Both the position numbers and the translations under genes were made by a program. This document shows, one piece after another, positions 2,017-18,590 of a stretch of DNA of 64,000 nucleotides. Numbering within the stretch: the first letter of the stretch is position 1; each line of letters opens with the position of its first letter. Under the pieces are notes generated by a model. That model did not search any database and was not told the DNA's origin. It saw nothing but the letters and a program-made list of their open reading frames with translations. Source of the DNA: a virus; the IMG/VR virus record IMGVR_UViG_3300021961_000076, positions 1-64,000 of that record; one strand, given 5' to 3'.

Positions 2017-2134
2017 TGTTGTGATTTTGTGGCTGTACTTTCTTTTTCTTCTTCAAGATAGGGTACTGAGATTGTGCCCAGTTGTACCATTCCTGAAAAG
2101 CGAAATAACGCTGACGTCCTGTTACTTTACTCAT
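2006..2134 (-). CDS. Hypothetical basic protein, 42 aa
   Basis: Start ATG overlaps the GroEL stop (TAATG at 2132-2136), so it is probably translated by coupling. Aromatic-rich N-terminus (RQRYFAFQEWYNWAQ) followed by a run of lysines (LKKKKKVQ). No family recognised. Position directly behind GroEL could mean a chaperone-linked accessory, but this is only position. Confidence 0.55.
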   Translation of the reverse strand: MSKVTGRQRYFAFQEWYNWAQSQYPILKKKKKVQPQNHNNEI

Positions 2135-3756
2135 TACATAAATTGATTAAAATCCATCTCTTGTTTCTTATCTTCTTTAACGTTGCTGATTACACATTCA
2201 GTAGTCAACATAGTACGTGCAATTGAAGAAGCATTCTCTAGTGCTAAACGTGTTACCTTAGCAGGATCAATAATTCCTTCGGCAAACATATTTACATACT
2301 CTTCATTACGTAAGTTATAACCGTACCAGAAATTATCTGATTCTACGATCTCATCTGCAATGTCATGGATCTTATGAGCGTCATAACCTGCATTACTGAG
2401 GATTGTTGCAAAAGGTCGTTCAATAGCAGCCATTAAGATACCGTAACCTACAGCTTCTGAGCTATTTAGTTCAGCAGGAATCTCCATACTATTAGCTGCA
2501 TTTAGTAATGCTACTCCGCCTCCAGGCAAAATACCTTCTTCTAGTGCTGCTTTAGTAGCATGGAGAGCATCCTCTACTCGATCTTTCTTCTCTTTCATCT
2601 CAAGTTCAGATTGACCTCCTACGTGTACAATAGCTACTCCTCCTACTAAACGTCCCAAGCGGTCCTGTAGGGTCTCTTTTTCAAAAGGTGACTTACTATT
2701 ATCGATAAGAGACTTAATCTCCTCAATACGAGCTTCAATAGCTCCAGCTTCTCCTTTACCGTCTACAATAGTAGTCTCGTCTTTACCAACGGTAACTTTA
2801 CGAGCTTGACCTAACCACTCTGGGTTGAATTTGTCAAGGCGCATTCCTTTCTCAGTTGATACAACTTGACCACCAGTCAATGTAGCGATATCTTCTAGCA
2901 TAGCTTTCTTACGATCACCAAATTCTGGAGCCTTAACAGCTACTACTTGCAAGATACCTCGCATCTTATTAACGACCAGAGTGGAGAGAGCCTCGCCATC
3001 GATGTCATCAGCGATGATGAGCAATGGTTTGTTCTGTGAAGAGCATGCCTCAAGGATTGGCAGTAGCTCTTTTGCGGCAGTGACTTTCTTATCTGTAATC
3101 AAAACGAGAGGGTTGCTCAAAACGGCAGTCATGGAATTATTATCCGTAACAAAATAAATCGACTTATATCCTCGATTAAACTGCATACCCTCAACAACCT
3201 CGAGGTAAGTCTCTCCTGTGCGAGACTCCTCAATCGTCACTACGCCTTCACGTCCCACCTTGTCCATCGATGAAGCGATAAGCTCTCCCACTTCTGGGTC
3301 GTTGTTAGCTGAGATAGTTGCTACTTGATGCAACTGAGTCTCATCTGTAATCTCTCTAGCGTGCTTTTCTAGATACTCTACTACTGTAGAAGTAGCTTTA
3401 GCGATACCGCGACTGATATCAATAGCATTATAGTCCGCTAAAGATTCTAAGCCTTGAGCATAGATCTGAGCTGCTAAGAGAGTTGATGTAGTAGTACCGT
3501 CACCGGCACCATCTGCTGTCTTAATAGATGCCTGCTTTACTAGCTGGGCACCCATGTTTTCGATTGTGTCTTCTAACTCTACAGCCTTAGCTACTGTAAC
3601 ACCGTCCTTAGTGGAGGTTGGGTTACCCATAGACTGTTCGATAATAACATTACGTCCGTTAGGACCTAGTGTAGCTGTAACTGCGTTAGATAGTTTGTTT
3701 ACGCCTGCAAGAAGACTTGCTCTTGCTTTTGATGAAAATTCTATACGTTTACTCAT
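2134..3756 (-). CDS. groL: GroEL-type chaperonin (60 kDa)
   Basis: A 540-residue class I chaperonin that folds proteins in an ATP-driven barrel with GroES. Family hallmarks: KDGVTVAK (about residues 50-57), the ATP loop GDGTTT (86-91), VEDALHAT with the catalytic Asp, and PGGG near 412. The usual C-terminal Gly-Gly-Met repeats are missing; it ends DFNQFM. It overlaps groES by four bases (ATGA) and is coupled to it. Such pairs in phages are thought to fold capsid or tail proteins that the host chaperonin handles poorly; the client is not visible here. Confidence 0.97.
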   Translation of the reverse strand: MSKRIEFSSKARASLLAGVNKLSNAVTATLGPNGRNVIIEQSMGNPTSTKDGVTVAKAVELEDTIENMGAQLVKQASIKTADGAGDGTTTSTLLAAQIYAQGLESLADYNAIDISRGIAKATSTVVEYLEKHAREITDETQLHQVATISANNDPEVGELIASSMDKVGREGVVTIEESRTGETYLEVVEGMQFNRGYKSIYFVTDNNSMTAVLSNPLVLITDKKVTAAKELLPILEACSSQNKPLLIIADDIDGEALSTLVVNKMRGILQVVAVKAPEFGDRKKAMLEDIATLTGGQVVSTEKGMRLDKFNPEWLGQARKVTVGKDETTIVDGKGEAGAIEARIEEIKSLIDNSKSPFEKETLQDRLGRLVGGVAIVHVGGQSELEMKEKKDRVEDALHATKAALEEGILPGGGVALLNAANSMEIPAELNSSEAVGYGILMAAIERPFATILSNAGYDAHKIHDIADEIVESDNFWYGYNLRNEEYVNMFAEGIIDPAKVTRLALENASSIARTMLTTECVISNVKEDKKQEMDFNQFM

Positions 3757-10893: not shown

Positions 10894-11394
10894 TTACTTA
10901 GAGTTTTTTAGCTCTTCTTCAGTAAAGAACTGTTTAAGATTAGGTGCGAAGTAATTAATGGACTTCATAACTTTATCATCTGCCTTGCGGTAAACTACAT
11001 AACGGTTACCTACCTTACGAAAATAACAATCGCCGTGTTCTTTTTCTCGTTTCTCTATAGTGTCCATTGCTTCTTGTAGAGTAGCACAACTCTTAGACAT
11101 ATTCGAGGCCTGAACTTCTTTATAAGCAGGTATTAATTTATCTTTGAGTCCAAATACCATTGTAGCATTACCTACAGCTACGTAAAGTAGATCGCAGATA
11201 GCGTCTAGTACCTCTACGATATCTTTCTCTTCGATAGCGTGAGCTAGTTCGTCTGTCTCTTCCTTAATAAAGTTAACGACAAAGTCAGTTAGCTTTTTAT
11301 CATTAGGAATGATAGGAGTATAGTTATTCGGCTTACCGAACGTCTTGTTGAATACTTCTACTTCATCAACAAATTTTACTCGTACTTTTTTCAT
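10894..11394 (-). CDS. MazG-like NTP pyrophosphohydrolase
   Basis: All-helical MazG/PRA-PH-type core: NFIKEETDELAHAI supplies the EExxE-like metal site and VEVLDAICDLLYV the second acidic site (D64, D68 region), followed by ASNMSK. Such enzymes hydrolyse (d)NTPs to monophosphates. In a deazaguanine operon it could lower the guanine nucleotide pool or process (p)ppGpp-type signals, as suggested for other phage MazG proteins. The C-terminal 50 residues (YFRKVGNRYVVYRKADDKV) form an added beta segment. ATGA overlap with folE. Confidence 0.8.
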   Translation of the reverse strand: MKKVRVKFVDEVEVFNKTFGKPNNYTPIIPNDKKLTDFVVNFIKEETDELAHAIEEKDIVEVLDAICDLLYVAVGNATMVFGLKDKLIPAYKEVQASNMSKSCATLQEAMDTIEKREKEHGDCYFRKVGNRYVVYRKADDKVMKSINYFAPNLKQFFTEEELKNSK

Positions 11395-12101
11395 TTACAA
11401 GAATAACCTTTTACAAATTCATAAAATTCTGCTCGTGCTGAGTCTTCTTCCATAAAGCTCTTAGATAGCTTAGATGTCTTCATAGAAGCTCCTGCATGCT
11501 TAGTACCTCGACAAGATACACAGTTGTGGGTTGCTTCTACCATTACAGCTACTCCTACATTACCCTCACACACAGTATCGACTGCGTTGTGGATAGCTAC
11601 AGTAAGCTGCTCTTGAATAGCGCCTCTACGGCCAAAGTGCTCTACAATACGATTGAGCTTAGATAGACCGATTACCTTACCTCCAGGACCTGGAATGTAA
11701 GCGATATGTACTCGACCTTGAATGGTCTGGTGGTGGTGAGAACACATAGAGGTTAAAGGAATATTACCTTCGAATACAATACCGTCATAACCATCAGCAG
11801 GGAAGGCCGTGATCTCAGGCATAGGATTGAAACGTCCTGCCCATAAGTCATTCACATACGCCTTAGCCACTCGACGAGGAGTATCTGATGAGTTAGGATC
11901 ATTACGCCAATCACATCCTAGAGCATCTAGGAATTCACCAAATGCCTTAGCAGCATTCTCAATGATATTAAACCTCTCCTGGTCTGTTAAGTTCATAGAG
12001 GTCATAGAGTGAACTCGGAACTTCTCTGCTAGTTGAGCGGAGATACCATTAGCGAACCCGGCTTGAGCGAGTTCTACATCATAACGTTTCTTTTCTGCCA
12101 T
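11391..12101 (-). CDS. folE: GTP cyclohydrolase I (FolE)
   Basis: Converts GTP to 7,8-dihydroneopterin triphosphate, the first step of 7-deazaguanine synthesis. 236 residues; zinc ligands Cys120 and His123 in SMCSHHH and Cys194 in HNCVSCRGT; HIAYIPGPGGKVIGLSKLNR and FGRRGAIQEQLT are family signature segments. First gene of the operon running to queF, behind the promoter at 12141. The N-terminal 45 residues are an extension of the kind seen in bacterial enzymes. Confidence 0.96.
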   Translation of the reverse strand: MAEKKRYDVELAQAGFANGISAQLAEKFRVHSMTSMNLTDQERFNIIENAAKAFGEFLDALGCDWRNDPNSSDTPRRVAKAYVNDLWAGRFNPMPEITAFPADGYDGIVFEGNIPLTSMCSHHHQTIQGRVHIAYIPGPGGKVIGLSKLNRIVEHFGRRGAIQEQLTVAIHNAVDTVCEGNVGVAVMVEATHNCVSCRGTKHAGASMKTSKLSKSFMEEDSARAEFYEFVKGYSCK

Positions 12102-12140: not shown

Positions 12141-12170
12141 TAATATACGAAAACTATTTCAGAGTGCAAA
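12141..12170 (-). promoter_or_regulatory. Bacteroidota-type promoter of the folE-queF operon
   Basis: Minus-strand TTTG (12167-12170) inside the last codons of hpt, 19-base spacer ending TTCG, TATATTA (12141-12147). The leader to folE is about 40 bases and contains GGTGTCGAAGCACC, a small hairpin (12112-12133). Confidence 0.8.
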
Positions 12171-12665
12171 CACATCTCTGTAATTTCTTGCATAACCTTT
12201 CTCATTATCCATTCCAAAGCCTATTACCCATTCATCATCAATAGTAAATGCATGGTATGATTTCTGTTTAGGGATAGGTGAGGTTGCTCTAATAAGCAAG
12301 CTAACAATCGAGATAGAGGCTGGATGTTTAACTTCTAGGTATTCAATTACTGCTTTCATAGTATTACCTGTATCGTAGATATCATCTACCAGATATACGT
12401 GCTTACCTTTGATAGGAGTTTCCAGATCTTTCATAATCTGAATATCTCCTTGCTTCTTTTTACCTACATAAGATTTCACTCTCATAAAGTCACACTCTAC
12501 ATCAATAGGCATGCTCCTAACTAGATCTGCATAGAACATAAATGCTCCGTTTAACAAACCTACCATAACTACTGGTGTTTTATCTCCTCTGTGATCATCG
12601 GCAATCTGTTTACCGATAATTTTAGTTCGGATATCAATATCCTTAGCGTTCAATAACAGTTGCAT
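12159..12665 (-). CDS. hpt: Hypoxanthine/guanine phosphoribosyltransferase
   Basis: 168 residues of the type I PRTase fold. The PRPP loop is LVDDIYDTGNTM (92-103); MVGLLNGAFMF (34-44) is the strand and loop that bind pyrophosphate; MRVKSYVGKKKQGD is the flexible flap. The C-terminal EWVIGFGMDNEKGYARN matches the purine-binding end of Hpt enzymes. It would salvage hypoxanthine or guanine to IMP/GMP, feeding GTP to FolE and DNA synthesis. Last gene before the folE promoter; 10 bases after the outer-membrane protein gene region. Confidence 0.93.
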   Translation of the reverse strand: MQLLLNAKDIDIRTKIIGKQIADDHRGDKTPVVMVGLLNGAFMFYADLVRSMPIDVECDFMRVKSYVGKKKQGDIQIMKDLETPIKGKHVYLVDDIYDTGNTMKAVIEYLEVKHPASISIVSLLIRATSPIPKQKSYHAFTIDDEWVIGFGMDNEKGYARNYRDVFAL

Positions 12666-12674
12666 ATTTTGGTT

Positions 12675-13499
12675 TTAAAAATCGTAGTTAGCACCTAATG
12701 TAATAAAGTATGGGATCTCTTTTATATAACCTAGCTCTATATCCGAAACGTCATAATCAAGTGCGCTTCTTAGTTTAGTTGCAAAGGAGAATGTATCTGT
12801 AACTTTATAACCTATTGATACTCCGTAGTACAGATTCATATTAAAATCATTCCAGTACCATAAATCAATCTCATTTACCGCATCTTCATATAAGGTAAAG
12901 TAATGTGTTCGGATATCAGTTAGTAGGAATACTTCTGGTCTTAGTATCCAATGGTTTAACTCCCACTCTTTCATTCCAATCAACATTAGACTGTAAGTTT
13001 GATTTACAGCTGCATCATAGAATTCACCACCTAATTCAAAATCATCCCAGCTATAATCATTCACAAATAAAGTATATCCAATCTTTGTCGAATTTTTTTC
13101 ATACATCTGGTTAAAGTATGGGGATATAGTTAGAGCATCTGGCGTATATCCAGAATTAGATAGGGTAATTGAGTAGTTATTGGTTCTCTTTAGCCCGCTG
13201 CTAAACTCTTTAACTCTGCCGTAGTTGTATCCAACTTTACCGTATTTGAATGATGGGGTATATGAATAAAAGATTCCATTTGTATGCTTTCCACTTTCCC
13301 ACTCATATGCTAAGTTGAAACTAAATATAGTAAACTCACCTAAATAACCTAATGTTATATTTGAACTACTGATGATGTCGTTGTTCAGTTCAACATAAGT
13401 TACACTAGTCAGTTCTGAGTTAGCTTCTGCTCCTTCGTTAGATTGGCCAAACACCCACCCAAAGTGTAGCAGTAGTATAAGTGTTAGTATTCTTTTCAT
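12675..13499 (-). CDS. Predicted outer-membrane beta-barrel protein
   Basis: 274 residues. Signal peptide MKRILTLILLLHFGWVFGQ with cleavage after VFG. The remainder alternates polar and hydrophobic residues with many Tyr/Trp/Phe (e.g. NITLGYLGEFTIFSFNLAYEW) and ends in ITLGANYDF, the terminal Phe that marks barrels inserted by BamA. About 10-12 strands would fit. No enzyme motif is seen. It heads the run of exported proteins read in order nuclease, T9SS protein, lipoprotein, barrel. Possible roles are receptor masking, adhesion or export; none is shown. Confidence 0.7.
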   Translation of the reverse strand: MKRILTLILLLHFGWVFGQSNEGAEANSELTSVTYVELNNDIISSSNITLGYLGEFTIFSFNLAYEWESGKHTNGIFYSYTPSFKYGKVGYNYGRVKEFSSGLKRTNNYSITLSNSGYTPDALTISPYFNQMYEKNSTKIGYTLFVNDYSWDDFELGGEFYDAAVNQTYSLMLIGMKEWELNHWILRPEVFLLTDIRTHYFTLYEDAVNEIDLWYWNDFNMNLYYGVSIGYKVTDTFSFATKLRSALDYDVSDIELGYIKEIPYFITLGANYDF

Positions 13500-13502
13500 T
13501 TA

Positions 13503-13748
13503 TCAATTCATTCCACCACCTCTACCTTCGTCTTGAGTTGGTTGTGATTCTGCTTTTTGTTCTTTCTCTTGTTGTTTTACCTTTGCATTTTCAGCTGCCT
13601 TTACTTTGGTAGTGTTTAAGGATTCTACCTTTTGAGTTTCCTTATCAGTTCTCTGAACCGATTGGGCTGGATCACCGCTAATAGGAACTGTCACCGTACA
13701 AGCGGATAAGGTAAGTATTATTGTAGGTATAATCCAGAACTTTCTCAT
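13503..13748 (-). CDS. Small lipoprotein, 81 aa
   Basis: Signal with lipobox LSAC (MRKFWIIPTIILTLSAC), then a short TVTVP segment and a highly charged, Lys/Gln/Glu-rich, likely disordered helix ending GRGGGMN. The start overlaps the stop of the T9SS protein (ATGA). It would be anchored in the outer or inner membrane by its Cys17. A spanin-like role (Rz1) is possible from size alone but the context is surface proteins, not lysis. Confidence 0.75.
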   Translation of the reverse strand: MRKFWIIPTIILTLSACTVTVPISGDPAQSVQRTDKETQKVESLNTTKVKAAENAKVKQQEKEQKAESQPTQDEGRGGGMN

Positions 13749-14908
13749 TGAATAAGTACTTTTTCTACTCTACCGTTATTATATCTGATTACATATAATC
13801 CTTTAAGTTCGGCCCAATTTATATTTTCTCCCATATAACGACCGTTCCAATCATATACTTTGTATTGCGTATTGAAATCTGCAATATTTTCTTCAATTCC
13901 AATTGTTGAGTTTACAATCAGAGTAACAAAGTAGTCGTTATTAGAAGAGTTACTGGAAGCTCTTAATACTCCTTTATATGTACCTACCTGCAGGTCTGTT
14001 AAGTTCCAGGTTGTATTTGAAGCTTGAGTAACATTAACTCCTGGGAAGGTCAAGCTAGTAGAGGTGTAGTTGTTAATTAATACACTAACGTATAGCGAAT
14101 CTCCATTAAGCAGGTCTTGAGTAAAAGCAACTGGAGGTACTGGTACGTTAGGAGTAGATCCTGGTTGAGTAATGTATACTTGCTGAATTCTATTTACTCC
14201 GATCAAGCTTCCGTTTCTATACTCGCTAATTTTATACCCGGTAGCAAATTGACCATTAGTAGTTGGACCCCAAGTAATAGCTCCGTTTGCGTCTACATAG
14301 TATGTACCGTAATTACCTAGTTGAGAGAAAGGAGCTAAGGGTACAAACACTCCATTTGCATACTGATTAAGAGCGTCATCTTTTTCTACCATTACAGAAT
14401 CTCCATCAGGATCTACTGCAAAAAGAATTGATGTAGCTGTATCACCAGTAACCCAGTTGATAGGAAGAGGATTTACAATGATAGGAGCCGAGTTAGGTAC
14501 TGAGGATTTCTTATAATCTAATCCCATAGTAAAGCTGCTATTCATAGATGAAGCAGCGTTAGTGTGAATACCTCTACAACAGTTTGTATAAACGTATCGA
14601 TAATCGCCTGCTGTTAATACTCGGTAGCCGGAATAGATTGCTACGTTAACTCCTTGCCAGGTTGAAGTAACTTGTTGAGTTAAACTCACTGTAGTATTCT
14701 GTTGATAGAACCCATTAGTAAGTTTGTACTCAGTTAAGGTTAGAGAAGTAGGTCCGCTGATACCTTGAGGGTCAGTAAACAGAGTAACTGTAATATCTAC
14801 AGTATCAGAGTATCCGCGCTGGATAGCTTGAGTATATCCTCCTAAGAGGTGTGATGCACTTAGGTTAAATCCTAATGCAAGGGTGAGTAAGGTTAGTAGT
14901 TTTTTCAT
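13745..14908 (-). CDS. Secreted protein with T9SS sorting domain
   Basis: 387 residues. Signal peptide MKKLLTLLTLALGFNLSA, then SHLLGGYTQ, two adjacent Cys (TNCCRG), NSAPIIVNPLP, VDPDGDSVMV and GYKISEYRNGSLIG; these steps match the N-terminal module of large Bacteroidota surface proteins linked to gliding motility. The last ~75 residues (YDWNGRYMGENINW, then LKGLYVIRYNNGRVEKVLIQ) are a type A T9SS C-terminal sorting domain. Host T9SS would therefore export it to the cell surface or medium. ATGA overlaps tie it to the nuclease and lipoprotein genes. Host origin is likely; function unknown. Confidence 0.8.
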   Translation of the reverse strand: MKKLLTLLTLALGFNLSASHLLGGYTQAIQRGYSDTVDITVTLFTDPQGISGPTSLTLTEYKLTNGFYQQNTTVSLTQQVTSTWQGVNVAIYSGYRVLTAGDYRYVYTNCCRGIHTNAASSMNSSFTMGLDYKKSSVPNSAPIIVNPLPINWVTGDTATSILFAVDPDGDSVMVEKDDALNQYANGVFVPLAPFSQLGNYGTYYVDANGAITWGPTTNGQFATGYKISEYRNGSLIGVNRIQQVYITQPGSTPNVPVPPVAFTQDLLNGDSLYVSVLINNYTSTSLTFPGVNVTQASNTTWNLTDLQVGTYKGVLRASSNSSNNDYFVTLIVNSTIGIEENIADFNTQYKVYDWNGRYMGENINWAELKGLYVIRYNNGRVEKVLIQ

Positions 14909-15504
14909 CGAATTACGTTTCTACAATTACATTTAAAAGCTTCAAGCTCTGAGGTATCAGGCTTAACATTCTTAAAATAGTAACATTCTCGCTTATTTCC
15001 AACTTTTAGTTCCTTATAATACCCTACTGGGATAGCAGCATTTGCAGGTACGCGGTTTGGAGTTGCTCCATACTCTACTCTGATAAAGACTTTAACTTCG
15101 TTATCTTTAGCTAATTCTCTCTCACGTACTTCCAACTTCTTCCATACTCCTCTATTAAGAGACTGTTGCTGTAGGCTAGAATTAACATAGGTAAAAGTAC
15201 TAAGTAGCATATTACGATCGCAGTTAAAAGAGGCGGCAGGAGCCATATGACCTTTATCCCATTCATTAGCTACGTAGTCGTCATTATCGGAAGTATGTAC
15301 TTGCTTCTCTTTATAAAAGTCCATTCCTGATCTAGAGGCTGTACCTGAAGGACACATTACAGTGTAGCGGATAGAGCGAGGTCCTTCTAAGACTTCTGAG
15401 TAGTTAATAATAAAGTTAGGTGTTGTGTAATATACGCTATCTTTTAACTGTGCGTATGTGGTTACTGATAAGAAGAGCAGTAACAGAGTTGACCATTTTT
15501 TCAT
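14905..15504 (-). CDS. Secreted DNA/RNA non-specific endonuclease (NUC family)
   Basis: 199 residues with signal peptide MKKWSTLLLLFLSVTTYA. The catalytic D-K/R-G-H motif is DKGHMAP (83-89, His86), Asn108 in TYVNSS is the magnesium ligand position, and SLNRGVWKKLE (115-125) is the conserved helix of the Serratia/NucA family. The enzyme would act in the periplasm or outside the cell, cutting DNA and RNA. No inhibitor gene is seen, fitting an exported enzyme. First gene after thyX in the exported cassette. Confidence 0.9.
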   Translation of the reverse strand: MKKWSTLLLLFLSVTTYAQLKDSVYYTTPNFIINYSEVLEGPRSIRYTVMCPSGTASRSGMDFYKEKQVHTSDNDDYVANEWDKGHMAPAASFNCDRNMLLSTFTYVNSSLQQQSLNRGVWKKLEVRERELAKDNEVKVFIRVEYGATPNRVPANAAIPVGYYKELKVGNKRECYYFKNVKPDTSELEAFKCNCRNVIR

Positions 15505-15506
15505 AA

Positions 15507-16154
15507 TTAATAATTTAGGGCTTTAGAAATAACAGGAAATTCTTCTATAAATAGTTTTTTGATTTCTTTAGCTACATCCTGAATCTCTTTCTGTGCGTGA
15601 GCGTCATCTCGGAGATCTAAGAAGTGAATCCATGAGCGGATAGAACCAGTCATGTGAATCTTAGTTTTAGTAGATAATGGTAACACCATTCGAGCTACTT
15701 CTCTTGCTACACCTTCATCAAGGAGTCGCTTATAAAGATCTTGAGAAGCTCTGAAGTGCTTGCCTATCTGAGCTGAAGCAGCAGTAGAGTACCCGTCATA
15801 GTATACATCTGGGTTGAATATCTCAGTAGAACTTTGTCTGTTATCTTCAGCTTGCTTTCTTAACTCTACCCTCTCAAACATTCCGTCCAAGAGGTTAACA
15901 TCTTGATAACGTTGACTAAATTCCTGAAAGGTAAAAGAGCGGTGACGTATTAACTGAATGCCAATTGCTTTAGAGGTTTCAATCTCTACTGACATATAAC
16001 CATGCTCAAATGGAGACCAGTGCTTATGTTTGATCAGATAGTTAAGAAGCCCTTCAGGCTTTTCTACCTTATCGGTACGTTTAGAGGATACTCTAGCAAT
16101 TTTAACAATTGCATTTTCGGCATCCGGTGTGACGTGGTTTAGTGTTACTTTCAT
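15507..16154 (-). CDS. thyX: Flavin-dependent thymidylate synthase ThyX
   Basis: Makes dTMP from dUMP with FAD/NADPH and methylene-folate. 215 residues with the ThyX signature RHRSFTFQEFSQRY (70-83: RHR plus Ser80) and HWSPFEHGYMSVEI (45-58). Its start overlaps the upstream 61-aa gene by four bases (ATGA). Together with NrdAB it secures dNTPs for replication; the ferredoxin and thioredoxin genes upstream are in the same transcript. Confidence 0.96.
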   Translation of the reverse strand: MKVTLNHVTPDAENAIVKIARVSSKRTDKVEKPEGLLNYLIKHKHWSPFEHGYMSVEIETSKAIGIQLIRHRSFTFQEFSQRYQDVNLLDGMFERVELRKQAEDNRQSSTEIFNPDVYYDGYSTAASAQIGKHFRASQDLYKRLLDEGVAREVARMVLPLSTKTKIHMTGSIRSWIHFLDLRDDAHAQKEIQDVAKEIKKLFIEEFPVISKALNY

Positions 16155-16336
16155 ATTTCTTGATATTCGATTTTTGGAACCTCTCTACAAAAATAGAGTA
16201 GACCATCCTTGCGGAAGGTATGTGTACAATGCCAGTACTGTTTAAGAAGTTCAACATCCCATTGCTTATCTTCTCTAAGGACTCTTTGAACTTCATACCA
16301 ATCATCGTTTAATGTTATTAAATCTTTCTTTCTCAT
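16151..16336 (-). CDS. Hypothetical protein, 61 aa
   Basis: Starts MRKKDLITLNDDWYEV; contains HCTHTF and YFCREV, giving two Cys and two His that might bind a metal, though the spacing is not a known motif. Overlaps the ferredoxin stop and the thyX start by four bases each, so it is translated in the same coupled chain. An overlapping frame (16102-16305) is not supported. No family recognised. Confidence 0.75.
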   Translation of the reverse strand: MRKKDLITLNDDWYEVQRVLREDKQWDVELLKQYWHCTHTFRKDGLLYFCREVPKIEYQEI

Positions 16337-16584
16337 TTATACTCTAATCCGAAATGCTTATAGTTAGCATGAACAGAATTTTCTTCGCCCATTTGAATAG
16401 CAAGGGTTTCGTTTTCAAATATTGCTTCTACTGGGCAGGCTGGTATACAGGCTCCACAGTTAATACATTCGTCTGGATGTATGAACATCTGTTCTAAGCT
16501 TTCGTAGATACAATCAATAGGGCATGCTTCAATACATGCTCCATCTTTCTCTCCTATGCATTTACTTCCTATAATAAAACTCAT
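16333..16584 (-). CDS. Ferredoxin, 2[4Fe-4S] type
   Basis: 83 residues from the ATG at 16584, which overlaps the upstream stop (ATGA); an earlier TTG is less likely. Eight cysteines in two clusters: Cys9, 17, 21, 25 and Cys40, 43, 46, 50 (ECINCGACIPACP). Small electron carrier; the obvious clients in the same operon are QueE (a radical-SAM enzyme needing a low-potential donor) and perhaps ThyX. The first cluster spacing (C-x7-C-x3-C-x3-C) is like FdxA-type proteins and might hold a 3Fe-4S centre instead. Confidence 0.93.
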   Translation of the reverse strand: MSFIIGSKCIGEKDGACIEACPIDCIYESLEQMFIHPDECINCGACIPACPVEAIFENETLAIQMGEENSVHANYKHFGLEYK

Positions 16585-16928
16585 TTCCAAAGAACTTGAA
16601 CACAGATTAATATAAGAGCTAAAAGTAGACTGATAGCTGTCTTAGTTGAGATAGGTTCTCCCATATAGTACCATACGCAAAAGGCGTAAATAATCATTCC
16701 TGTACCGAAGCCTATAAACCTAGCCGGCCATAGAAGGCCGTCAAATCCAGCAACAGTTGTTCTAGTAGCCCAGATAAAAATAAATGAAATAGGTACTCCA
16801 AATAAAGCTATAGCCCATTCGTGCTTTCTAAACCACTCCCAGATAAACTGACCGTTAAGCTGGTAAAAGGTTATAAGCTGTCCTAGCAAGAATAAGCTCG
16901 CTCCAATTAGAATACTTTTTATATTCAT
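16581..16928 (-). CDS. Integral membrane protein, 115 aa
   Basis: Four hydrophobic helices at roughly residues 6-24, 39-56, 68-88 and 96-113 (e.g. ALFGVPISFIFIWATRT, SLLLALILICVQVLW). Short loops and few charges suggest a small inner-membrane protein. ATGA overlaps on both sides. I do not recognise a named family. Confidence 0.8.
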   Translation of the reverse strand: MNIKSILIGASLFLLGQLITFYQLNGQFIWEWFRKHEWAIALFGVPISFIFIWATRTTVAGFDGLLWPARFIGFGTGMIIYAFCVWYYMGEPISTKTAISLLLALILICVQVLWK

Positions 16929-17104
16929 ACTCGTACTCCGTAACGAAATTCGTGCTTCTCATTTTCTTTTTCTGCTCCTATACCGTCTAAGGTTAGGTAG
17001 CCTAGCTCATACCCGTAGGCACTTAAAGCAGAGATGACTCCTGCTGGGTCAACTACTTTTAAAGCCCAGAGCTGATGTAGGTTTTGTAAAAATCCGTGTG
17101 GCAT
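16925..17104 (-). CDS. Hypothetical protein, 59 aa
   Basis: Clean frame that starts at the queE stop (TAATG, 17102-17106) and ends in the start of the membrane protein gene (ATGA). Sequence runs MPHGFLQNLHQLWALKV to a charged end (GAEKENEKHEFRYGVRV). Its position in a chain of coupled genes makes it real; function unknown. Confidence 0.75.
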   Translation of the reverse strand: MPHGFLQNLHQLWALKVVDPAGVISALSAYGYELGYLTLDGIGAEKENEKHEFRYGVRV

Positions 17105-17886
17105 TATACTTCGCGTTTAGTGTCAAAGGCAATGATGTGTTCACGGCCTGTAAAATTATAATAGTTATCAGTACACCATTGTATTACCATTGGGTAAACT
17201 CTGATGAGTTCTTCTCTGTTATCTCCAGGAGGCATAATCCAGATCTTATCTTTAGGTACTTCTAACTCGTCCATGAAGGCACGAATCTCATCCCAGGTGT
17301 CAGGCATCTCTACCGGATTAACAACCACCTTCATATGGTAGTCTGAATGGTAAGTCATAGACTGCTTGATAGACTCTTTGTTAAGCCTAAAGCGGTTATG
17401 GGTATCAATAAAACGCTGATCTACAACAGACCCAAGAGGCGTAACTGCACCAAGTACAGGAACAGAATTGCTGAACTTAGGACTGAAGCTAATAAGACCA
17501 ATAGGGTAATCTGTTTCCAGAAAGGCCGATCCTTCAGTCTCGATAGTAATAACAATACCCCTTTCATTAGCAAAATGTGTTAATTCATTTACAATAGCTG
17601 GGTGCATGGTAGGTGAACCTCCTGTTAGCATCATCTCCTTAATCTCAGGATGTGCATCATAAATGTCTACGATGTCCTGAAATGAGTATTTACCTTTCTC
17701 TGGGTGAATACTTGTGTACCAGCTATCACACCATCCTCCTTCTCCGAAGTAACAGCGGTGAGTACAGCCTGTAGTACGTACAGCAACAGTAGGTCTACCG
17801 GCACGGCTACCTTCTGATTGTACGCATGTGTAAAGTTCTACGATAGGTAGAGTCTTACTATAGTCTTCAATTCTCTTAAGCGGCAT
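17104..17886 (-). CDS. queE: QueE, 7-carboxy-7-deazaguanine synthase
   Basis: Radical-SAM enzyme that contracts the pterin ring of carboxytetrahydropterin to 7-carboxy-7-deazaguanine. 260 residues from the ATG at 17886 (11-base overlap with queD). N-terminal VELYTCVQSEGSRAGRPT is the QueE substrate strand; the cluster cysteines are Cys41, Cys45 and Cys53, i.e. C-x3-C-x7-C, an expanded form of the usual C-x3-C-x2-C. LTGGSPTMHP is the GGE-like SAM motif and VTIETEGSA a further family segment. Ferredoxin two genes on is a likely electron donor. Confidence 0.93.
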   Translation of the reverse strand: MPLKRIEDYSKTLPIVELYTCVQSEGSRAGRPTVAVRTTGCTHRCYFGEGGWCDSWYTSIHPEKGKYSFQDIVDIYDAHPEIKEMMLTGGSPTMHPAIVNELTHFANERGIVITIETEGSAFLETDYPIGLISFSPKFSNSVPVLGAVTPLGSVVDQRFIDTHNRFRLNKESIKQSMTYHSDYHMKVVVNPVEMPDTWDEIRAFMDELEVPKDKIWIMPPGDNREELIRVYPMVIQWCTDNYYNFTGREHIIAFDTKREV

Positions 17887-18334
17887 AGATTGCTGAGTTT
17901 TTGTGGTTTTCCATAAATTTAACTTTAACAACCTTTACGCGACCTTCAGTCTCTAGTTGTACGAAATCGTTTAGCTTGTGGTAAAGATATTCTGCAAATT
18001 TCTCTGCACCTACTGCCGGTATTACTCTTAATTGAATAATACCTCTAGCGTCTAAATCTACAAAGTCTGACATAGCAGGGTCGTCTTCTGATACTACGAC
18101 AGTATGATCAAACATATACTCCATCCACTCTTTAGGTTGACGTCCTTCAATAAGGTTATTAGCACGCTTCATACCTCCGAAGTCCCATACCCAGTTTCGA
18201 TGATCTAAGTCACCTTCAAACGTTACTTCAAACTCTACGTCGTAACCGTGAAGATACTGACAGTGAGTCGTATTTGCTCTCCATTGACGGAAGCAAGTAC
18301 TAAATCCGTCAAACTTCTTTCTACTCTTATACAT
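17876..18334 (-). CDS. queD: QueD-like 6-carboxytetrahydropterin synthase
   Basis: Member of the PTPS/QueD family that follows FolE. From the ATG at 18334 (8-base overlap with thioredoxin). Signature THCQYLHGYDVEFEVTFEG with catalytic Cys, then NWVWDFGGMKR and FDHTVVV; the usual HGH zinc motif reads HGY and the first zinc His region reads CFRQWRA. This HGY form is a recurring variant in phages and some bacteria, so activity is still likely. Part of the queD-queE pair after the promoter at 18898. Confidence 0.88.
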   Translation of the reverse strand: MYKSRKKFDGFSTCFRQWRANTTHCQYLHGYDVEFEVTFEGDLDHRNWVWDFGGMKRANNLIEGRQPKEWMEYMFDHTVVVSEDDPAMSDFVDLDARGIIQLRVIPAVGAEKFAEYLYHKLNDFVQLETEGRVKVVKVKFMENHKNSAIYAA

Positions 18335-18590
18335 CTTCTGTAAAGTTTTTATATTGTTCAATATAATGATTTAAAGGCTTAGCTCCAACTGTACGAGCAA
18401 ACTCTTTTCCGGACTCGTCTACCAGTACGACTGTTGGTACACTACGGACAGTATATTCCATTGTTAGGAGCTCTTCAGTATCGATATTAATCTTCTCTAC
18501 TGCAATTCCTTGCTCTTTTACTTTCTCCATTGTTGGACCTAACATTCGGCAAGGTCCGCACCAAGGGGCGCTAAAATACAAATACTTCAT
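18327..18590 (-). CDS. Thioredoxin
   Basis: 87-residue thioredoxin fold with the active site WCGPC (10-14) and the cis-proline segment SVPTVVLVD. It can reduce ribonucleotide reductase NrdAB (whose C-terminal Cys pair is present in this window) and other disulfides. Short for the family but all core elements are present. ATGA overlap with the 91-aa gene upstream. Confidence 0.93.
   Translation of the reverse strand: MKYLYFSAPWCGPCRMLGPTMEKVKEQGIAVEKINIDTEELLTMEYTVRSVPTVVLVDESGKEFARTVGAKPLNHYIEQYKNFTEDV

Follow-up and report, generated by a model that had tools for sequence, protein, structure and literature searches.

A putative type IX secretion cargo encoded in a variable gene slot of a virus of a Flavobacteriales-type host

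Four exported proteins encoded at one phage locus

Can a phage place a protein of its own on the surface of an infected cell through the type IX secretion system (T9SS) of the host, and to what end? The question is raised by four consecutive open reading frames on the minus strand (positions 12675–15504) of the IMG/VR record IMGVR_UViG_3300021961_000076, a linear fragment of 68,286 bp; its positions 1–64,000, the whole stretch analyzed here, are referred to as the window. The record carries phage genes for a tail sheath, a tail fibre, DnaB helicase, PolA and ribonucleotide reductase (RNR), and no terminase was matched in it. The virus would belong to a putative Flavobacteriales-type host.

The four genes encode a nuclease, an SHxxGG surface-type protein, a lipoprotein and a putative outer-membrane barrel, in that order. 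The SHxxGG gene overlaps the nuclease gene on one side and the lipoprotein gene on the other by 4 bp each, and 3 bp separate the lipoprotein and barrel genes. Among approximately 61 window genes checked, only these four have a charged n-region, a hydrophobic core and a cleavage motif; the scan applied a simple rule for these three elements rather than SignalP, and its fifth match in the window is a membrane protein that has no cleavage motif. The initial annotation had described four adjacent, coupled genes for exported proteins, and the reading frames, which lie exactly at 12675–15504 and hold the sole Sec-type signals with a cleavage site in the window, bear this out. Its nuclease, N-terminal surface-protein module and lipoprotein were likewise recovered, by family match, profile homology and lipobox, respectively.

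The cassette is flanked upstream by the gene for ThyX (minus strand, 15507–16154; PF02511, 7e-49) and at its downstream edge by an hprt-like phosphoribosyltransferase gene (minus strand, 12159–12665; PF00156, 5e-23). The phage also encodes an 85-residue dicluster-type ferredoxin (window 16333–16590; PF00037, 1.3e-11) and a GroEL (window 2134–3756; phrog_5725, 7.4e-163). GTP cyclohydrolase I, a radical SAM protein resembling QueE and a QueD-like reading frame are found at window positions 11391–12101 and 17104–18361, the QueE-like and QueD-like names having been given from sequence reading. These three genes probably represent a 7-deazaguanine pathway, which perhaps serves DNA modification.

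A widely conserved exported nuclease

The first gene of the run (minus strand, 14905–15504) encodes a DNA/RNA non-specific endonuclease of 199 residues with a signal peptide and the motifs DKGH and N..LQ....N...W. Its identity as a nuclease is certain; it matches PF01223 (Endonuclease_NS) at 1e-20, with 74.8 bits against a gathering score of 23, and its relatives in the PDB are EXOG/EndoG-like proteins. In viral contigs, 72 relatives were found. The D[KR]GH and Asn/Trp motif is kept in 73/73 full-length sequences of the viral family and a hydrophobic N-terminus in 72 of them, and the gene is also present in an isolate, Flavobacterium phage immuto. Because of these relatives, the kept motifs and the presence in immuto, the nuclease is to be seen as a separate, widely conserved exported phage gene that does not depend on the other cassette genes.

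The SHxxGG module

The second gene (minus strand, 13745–14908) encodes a protein of 387 residues with a signal peptide, an N-terminal SHxxGG module and a short type-A-like T9SS tag. The module (approximately residues 19–250; minus strand, 14159–14854) contains SHLLGG, NCCRG, DPDGDS and EYRNG in succession. In profile–profile comparison with hhalign, it matched bacterial SHxxGG proteins with P = 1.1e-10 and a score of 81.7, whereas 60 shuffles scored 23 or less, and the homology spans the whole module, including the SHxxGG, CC, DGDS and EYR motifs. By this comparison, the 387-residue protein and the SHxxGG surface module of Bacteroidota are truly homologous. Searched with a profile of the phage family, 61 of 196 Flavobacteriales genomes proved to encode members, the best of which carry a complete type A sorting domain, YPNP included, at their C-terminus. 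A second phage family, represented by 37 viral loci, joins the same module to a type B domain (PF13585, 2.5e-17; TIGR04131 over its cut-off), and the closest bacterial homologue found for it is 54% identical and encoded in a Schleiferiaceae genome.

In the SHxxGG tree, for which the program warns of some deep joins between long branches, the viral sequences fall into two clades, the short form in one (support 100/100) and the type B form in the other (94/97). For pairs of the short form, dN/dS is about 0.07–0.12, with dS near saturation in most. On these sequence grounds, the SHxxGG genes of phages are maintained phage genes in two old clades under purifying selection, and they were probably acquired by phages at least twice. 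Structure prediction from four sequences gave a mean pLDDT of 45 and no significant Foldseek match in the PDB, and a sequence search of the PDB with the SHxxGG profile found no relative. Among the INPHARED phages, neither the SHxxGG protein nor the barrel protein has a relative.

A probable short C-terminal sorting tag

The tail of the protein (approximately residues 335–387; minus strand, 13748–13906) reads IGIEEN...YKVYDWNGRYMG...LKGLYVIRYNNGRVEKVLIQ. The initial annotation had called it a T9SS C-terminal signal, with failure in TIGR04183-type searches set beforehand as the refuting outcome, and such failure is what was found: scans of the 387-residue protein or its tail with TIGR04183, TIGR04131, PF18962 and PF13585 gave no match, up to E = 10 for the NCBIfam models and in Pfam. 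A member of the short-tail family in another record (L175) reaches 12.8 bits against the TIGR04183 cut-off of 23, and motif A (YPNP), which stands at the start of the domain, is absent from all of the phage short tails. With our own type A and type B models, nothing significant was obtained in six frames of the whole record; the short tag alone responds.

Tests at the level of the family gave a different outcome. The tail family (17 sequences) aligned with bacterial type A domains in hhalign with P = 5.7e-5, above 200 column shuffles and a reversed control. What is conserved is the D/E end (L..G.Y...., with a K near the C-terminus), and D, G, G and K columns are invariant in the family. A tail model, A6, found 17, 12, 9, 9 and 5 matches in five Flavobacteriales genomes, on otherwise unrelated proteins. 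Since one of the 14 rows of the A6 alignment (L227) is bacterial, the key test of C-terminal position was repeated with the phage rows only; 32 of 35 matches end within 7 residues of the C-terminus of their reading frame, against about 7% expected, at loci that had been picked with the 14-row model. SprA is encoded in all eight of the genomes tested for it, which bear related modules and tags, and the five genomes richest in tags also carry 25–49 ordinary type A domains each. The short tag thus occupies the extreme C-terminus of diverse secreted proteins in T9SS-positive genomes, and the 387-residue protein itself carries the Sec signal peptide of a T9SS substrate by the rule-based scan. GFP is exported when it carries no more than the last 22 residues of the HBP35 type A domain, which include motifs D and E (reviewed in PMC10202324), and a tag that keeps just the D/E end (LKGLYVIRYNNGRVEKVLIQ) fits this result.

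Given the failed TIGR04183 scans, the profile and position tests and the HBP35 precedent, the tail is therefore read as a short type-A-like sorting tag and not as a member of TIGR04183. The tag is missed by that model and common to many bacterial secreted proteins, and the 387-residue protein is very probably a phage-encoded T9SS cargo. Thus, the sorting signal survives in altered form, and the main claim of the initial annotation, a phage-encoded type IX cargo with a surface-protein module at its N-terminus, is well supported.

In bacteria, a short C-terminal tag of the form LIKITDILGRE....LLYIYDDGSVEKKIIIE was observed on numerous secreted proteins, otherwise unrelated, from Flavobacteriales with small genomes (L229–L258, in genomes G073, G038, G219, G093 and G101). 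It is mostly missed by TIGR04183 and looks like an unmodelled class of T9SS tag.

The lipoprotein and the putative barrel

The third gene (minus strand, 13503–13748) encodes a small, coiled-coil-like lipoprotein of 81 residues with the lipobox LSA|C, for which no family scored over its cut-off. A role as an o-spanin was considered, but no transmembrane partner is evident beside the gene.

The fourth gene (minus strand, 12675–13499) encodes an exported protein of 274 residues that is probably an outer-membrane beta-barrel. This reading follows from its signal peptide, its aromatic content (19%) and its BAM-like C-terminus, ITLGANYDF, which is conserved in L175; the protein has no Cys. The barrel of the initial annotation stands as far as export, composition and C-terminus are concerned, but there is no family match, to transporters or otherwise, structure prediction from one sequence gave a pLDDT of 33, too low to establish a fold, and the amphipathicity is not significant (p = 0.21). 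A PDB sequence search with the barrel profile found nothing. PorP/SprF (TIGR03519) was rejected as an identity, with no model match and an hhalign score of 16, below the best shuffles. A homologue with 57% identity occurs in one other virus record, which also bears an SHxxGG gene, and in no further virus; dN/dS for this pair is about 0.08.

A variable slot beside the nuclease

In related phages, the position between the nuclease and hprt genes varies in content. It is empty in three relatives (L012, L014 and L073), in which hprt directly follows the nuclease; it holds a small reading frame and a thioesterase-like gene in L016, an SHxxGG gene and a thioesterase-like gene in L002–L004, L161 and L162, and the SHxxGG, lipoprotein and barrel genes in the window. 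A lipoprotein gene precedes the SHxxGG gene in L025 and L064. In other relatives (L126, L129 and L159; L005), the SHxxGG gene or the nuclease gene lies between nrdB- and nrdA-like genes, which were named from their sequence and the immuto annotation, as if these places were interchangeable cargo slots. The initial annotation had treated the four genes as one export cassette. They are indeed adjacent, but the nuclease is a conserved gene in its own right, the other three are absent or replaced in relatives of the window phage, and, because the barrel was found in just one other virus, the four genes are not conserved together.

In two records (L001 and L121), a gene for a TonB-dependent receptor lies directly upstream of the SHxxGG gene, with matches to PF00593 and PF07715 over their cut-offs; the L001 record also has a terminase. 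The same receptor, at 85% identity, occurs in two further viral records, and phage-encoded receptors with plug and barrel over the Pfam cut-offs are located at L001:3017–4993, L121:1398–3935, L276:892–2868 and L277:1–699. Such receptors could serve cobalamin or iron uptake, or they could act in changing the receptors used by phages.

T9SS-tagged proteins across the phage group

Sorting domains recognized by curated models are frequent in the same phage group. T9SS domains over cut-off occur in 16 of 26 viral records (14 by TIGR04183 and two more by PF13585); the records were chosen for the nuclease and not for the T9SS trait, and they are not a random sample because some are near-duplicates and longer ones were picked. 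The main type A phage family matches a cohesin model over its cut-off and also contains dockerin-like repeats. In immuto, gp015 (L181:7692–8423; NC_055915), annotated merely as cohesin domain-containing, lies three genes after the nuclease and matches TIGR04183 at 9.3e-12, with 44.8 bits against the cut-off of 23; the gene for a C-type lectin protein lies two genes upstream of it, beside the nuclease. By these matches, T9SS cargo is frequent across this phage group. The use of T9SS by a phage had been called unusual, which is half right, considering this frequency and the published precedents.

What the exported proteins may do

We propose that the phage uses this cassette as a cargo slot, filled with genes for proteins destined to leave the cytoplasm of the host. 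The coupled genes would be expressed during infection together with the surrounding nucleotide-metabolism genes, and Sec would take all four proteins through the inner membrane. From there, the SHxxGG protein would cross the outer membrane by the host T9SS (the SprA translocon with a PorV-type shuttle) by means of its short C-terminal tag and be displayed or released; secretion and surface location are what we infer. The lipoprotein and the putative barrel would settle in the outer membrane, possibly as partners of the SHxxGG protein, and the nuclease would act in the periplasm or outside the cell. The tagged protein of the window, together with the tagged proteins of many related viruses, suggests that the surface of the infected cell is probably refitted, and the gene anatomy supports this. 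The whole explanation, namely an exported cargo slot, T9SS display and surface refitting, is given a probability of about 0.6.

The purpose is a more tentative matter. The likeliest is a defence chiefly against competing phages, in which receptors are masked and the nuclease cuts incoming DNA; taken alone, such exclusion is a plausible guess rather than a firm proposal, and the sequence has no feature that points specifically to superinfection exclusion. With modest confidence, exclusion together with the nuclease is favoured over the two other purposes considered. The first is scavenging, in which the nuclease digests DNA outside the cell or in the periplasm and the surface protein and barrel or receptor bind and bring in nucleotides, cobalamin or iron as nutrients for phage DNA synthesis, much like a phage-made Sus/TonB uptake pair. 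The nuclease and SHxxGG genes do lie within runs of nucleotide-metabolism genes (ThyX, HPRT and GTP cyclohydrolase; nrdB- and nrdA-like genes in relatives), and the TonB-dependent receptors of L001 and L121 would suit such a pair. However, no TonB-dependent receptor is encoded in the window, the barrel there matches no transporter family, and import of DNA digestion products across the outer membrane would require further parts, of which none is seen; scavenging is considered unlikely. The second is adhesion or aggregation, in which the displayed proteins make infected cells stick together or to surfaces and so help progeny find hosts. The type-B-tagged SHxxGG proteins resemble surface adhesins in architecture, and the cohesin/dockerin-like T9SS proteins of related phages and the lectin beside the immuto nuclease point the same way, but the SHxxGG module has no known binding activity and no PDB relative, and this purpose seems quite improbable.

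Two further explanations deny the premise. The 387-residue protein might be exported by Sec without being a T9SS substrate, staying periplasmic or taking part in the virion or lysis pathway, with the tail as a structural end. That curated models miss the tail and that its type A match is of moderate strength would agree with this, yet unrelated proteins secreted by bacteria end in the same tail, at their extreme C-terminus, and in a sister phage family the same module is joined to curated type B domains, which makes it very improbable. Bacterial contamination or chimeric assembly, which the commonness of SHxxGG proteins in Flavobacteriales might suggest, is scarcely credible and was rejected for the SHxxGG family, given strong terminase matches in five SHxxGG-bearing records, viral-only clades, the same genes at syntenic places in many independent viral records and a T9SS-tagged protein in the isolate immuto.

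A further idea, speculative and rather doubtful, is that phages of Flavobacteriales build two-part surface devices from an SHxxGG protein, displayed by the host T9SS through a short and as yet unmodelled tag, and a phage outer-membrane protein, the latter being the small barrel in the window and the TonB-dependent receptor in L001 and L121. If true, viruses would thereby have made their own counterpart of the SusCD or SprB–SprF pairs, one that alters what the infected cell binds, imports or admits.

Comparison with known systems

The exported nuclease of Flavobacterium phage vB_FspM_immuto_2-6A is, as in the window, followed by exported proteins (gp012–gp015; NC_055915), one of which has a TIGR04183 domain. 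Unlike in the window, the immuto cargo is of C-type lectin and cohesin type rather than SHxxGG, and no barrel or lipoprotein was identified. As a cultured model for phage T9SS cargo, immuto on Flavobacterium sp. LMO8 is available. The SHxxGG surface proteins that Flavobacteriales themselves encode, with a type A or a type B domain (L097–L120 and L213–L222), share the N-terminal module, the signal peptide and a C-terminal sorting domain, whereas the phage forms are shorter and that of the window lacks the YPNP part in its shortened tag. The SprB/SprF and PorP–PG1035 pairs (PMC12618676; PMC9143113) likewise place the gene for a T9SS-exported surface protein beside that for an outer-membrane protein, although neither model nor profile makes the window barrel a PorP/SprF protein and the window tag is type-A-like.

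Phage products with T9SS sorting domains have been reported before. The cargo of Cryophage was termed a "unique occurrence" (PMC7468147), and T9SS-domain proteins were found near BACON ORFs in crAss-like phages (PMC6949934). These phages also have variable cargo, which bears ordinary type A domains and consists of hydrolases, a PA14 protein or BACON proteins, whereas here it is an SHxxGG protein with a short tag, with type B domains in relatives and a linked exported nuclease and outer-membrane genes. A sorting domain of the Cryophage type is recognized by curated models in the relatives and by the short tag only in the window. Because of these earlier reports, the window case is a broader form and not the first of its kind. 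Compared with the open-licence literature, beside which other reports may exist, the conserved families, the type B domains, the short tag and the coupled outer-membrane genes are new. Together they suggest that use of the host type IX system is a conserved habit of a Flavobacteriales phage group rather than a single oddity. The short tag, missed by current models in phages and many bacterial proteins, and the phage TonB-dependent receptors are relevant to the encounters that infected Bacteroidota of marine and fresh waters have with nutrients and with other phages.
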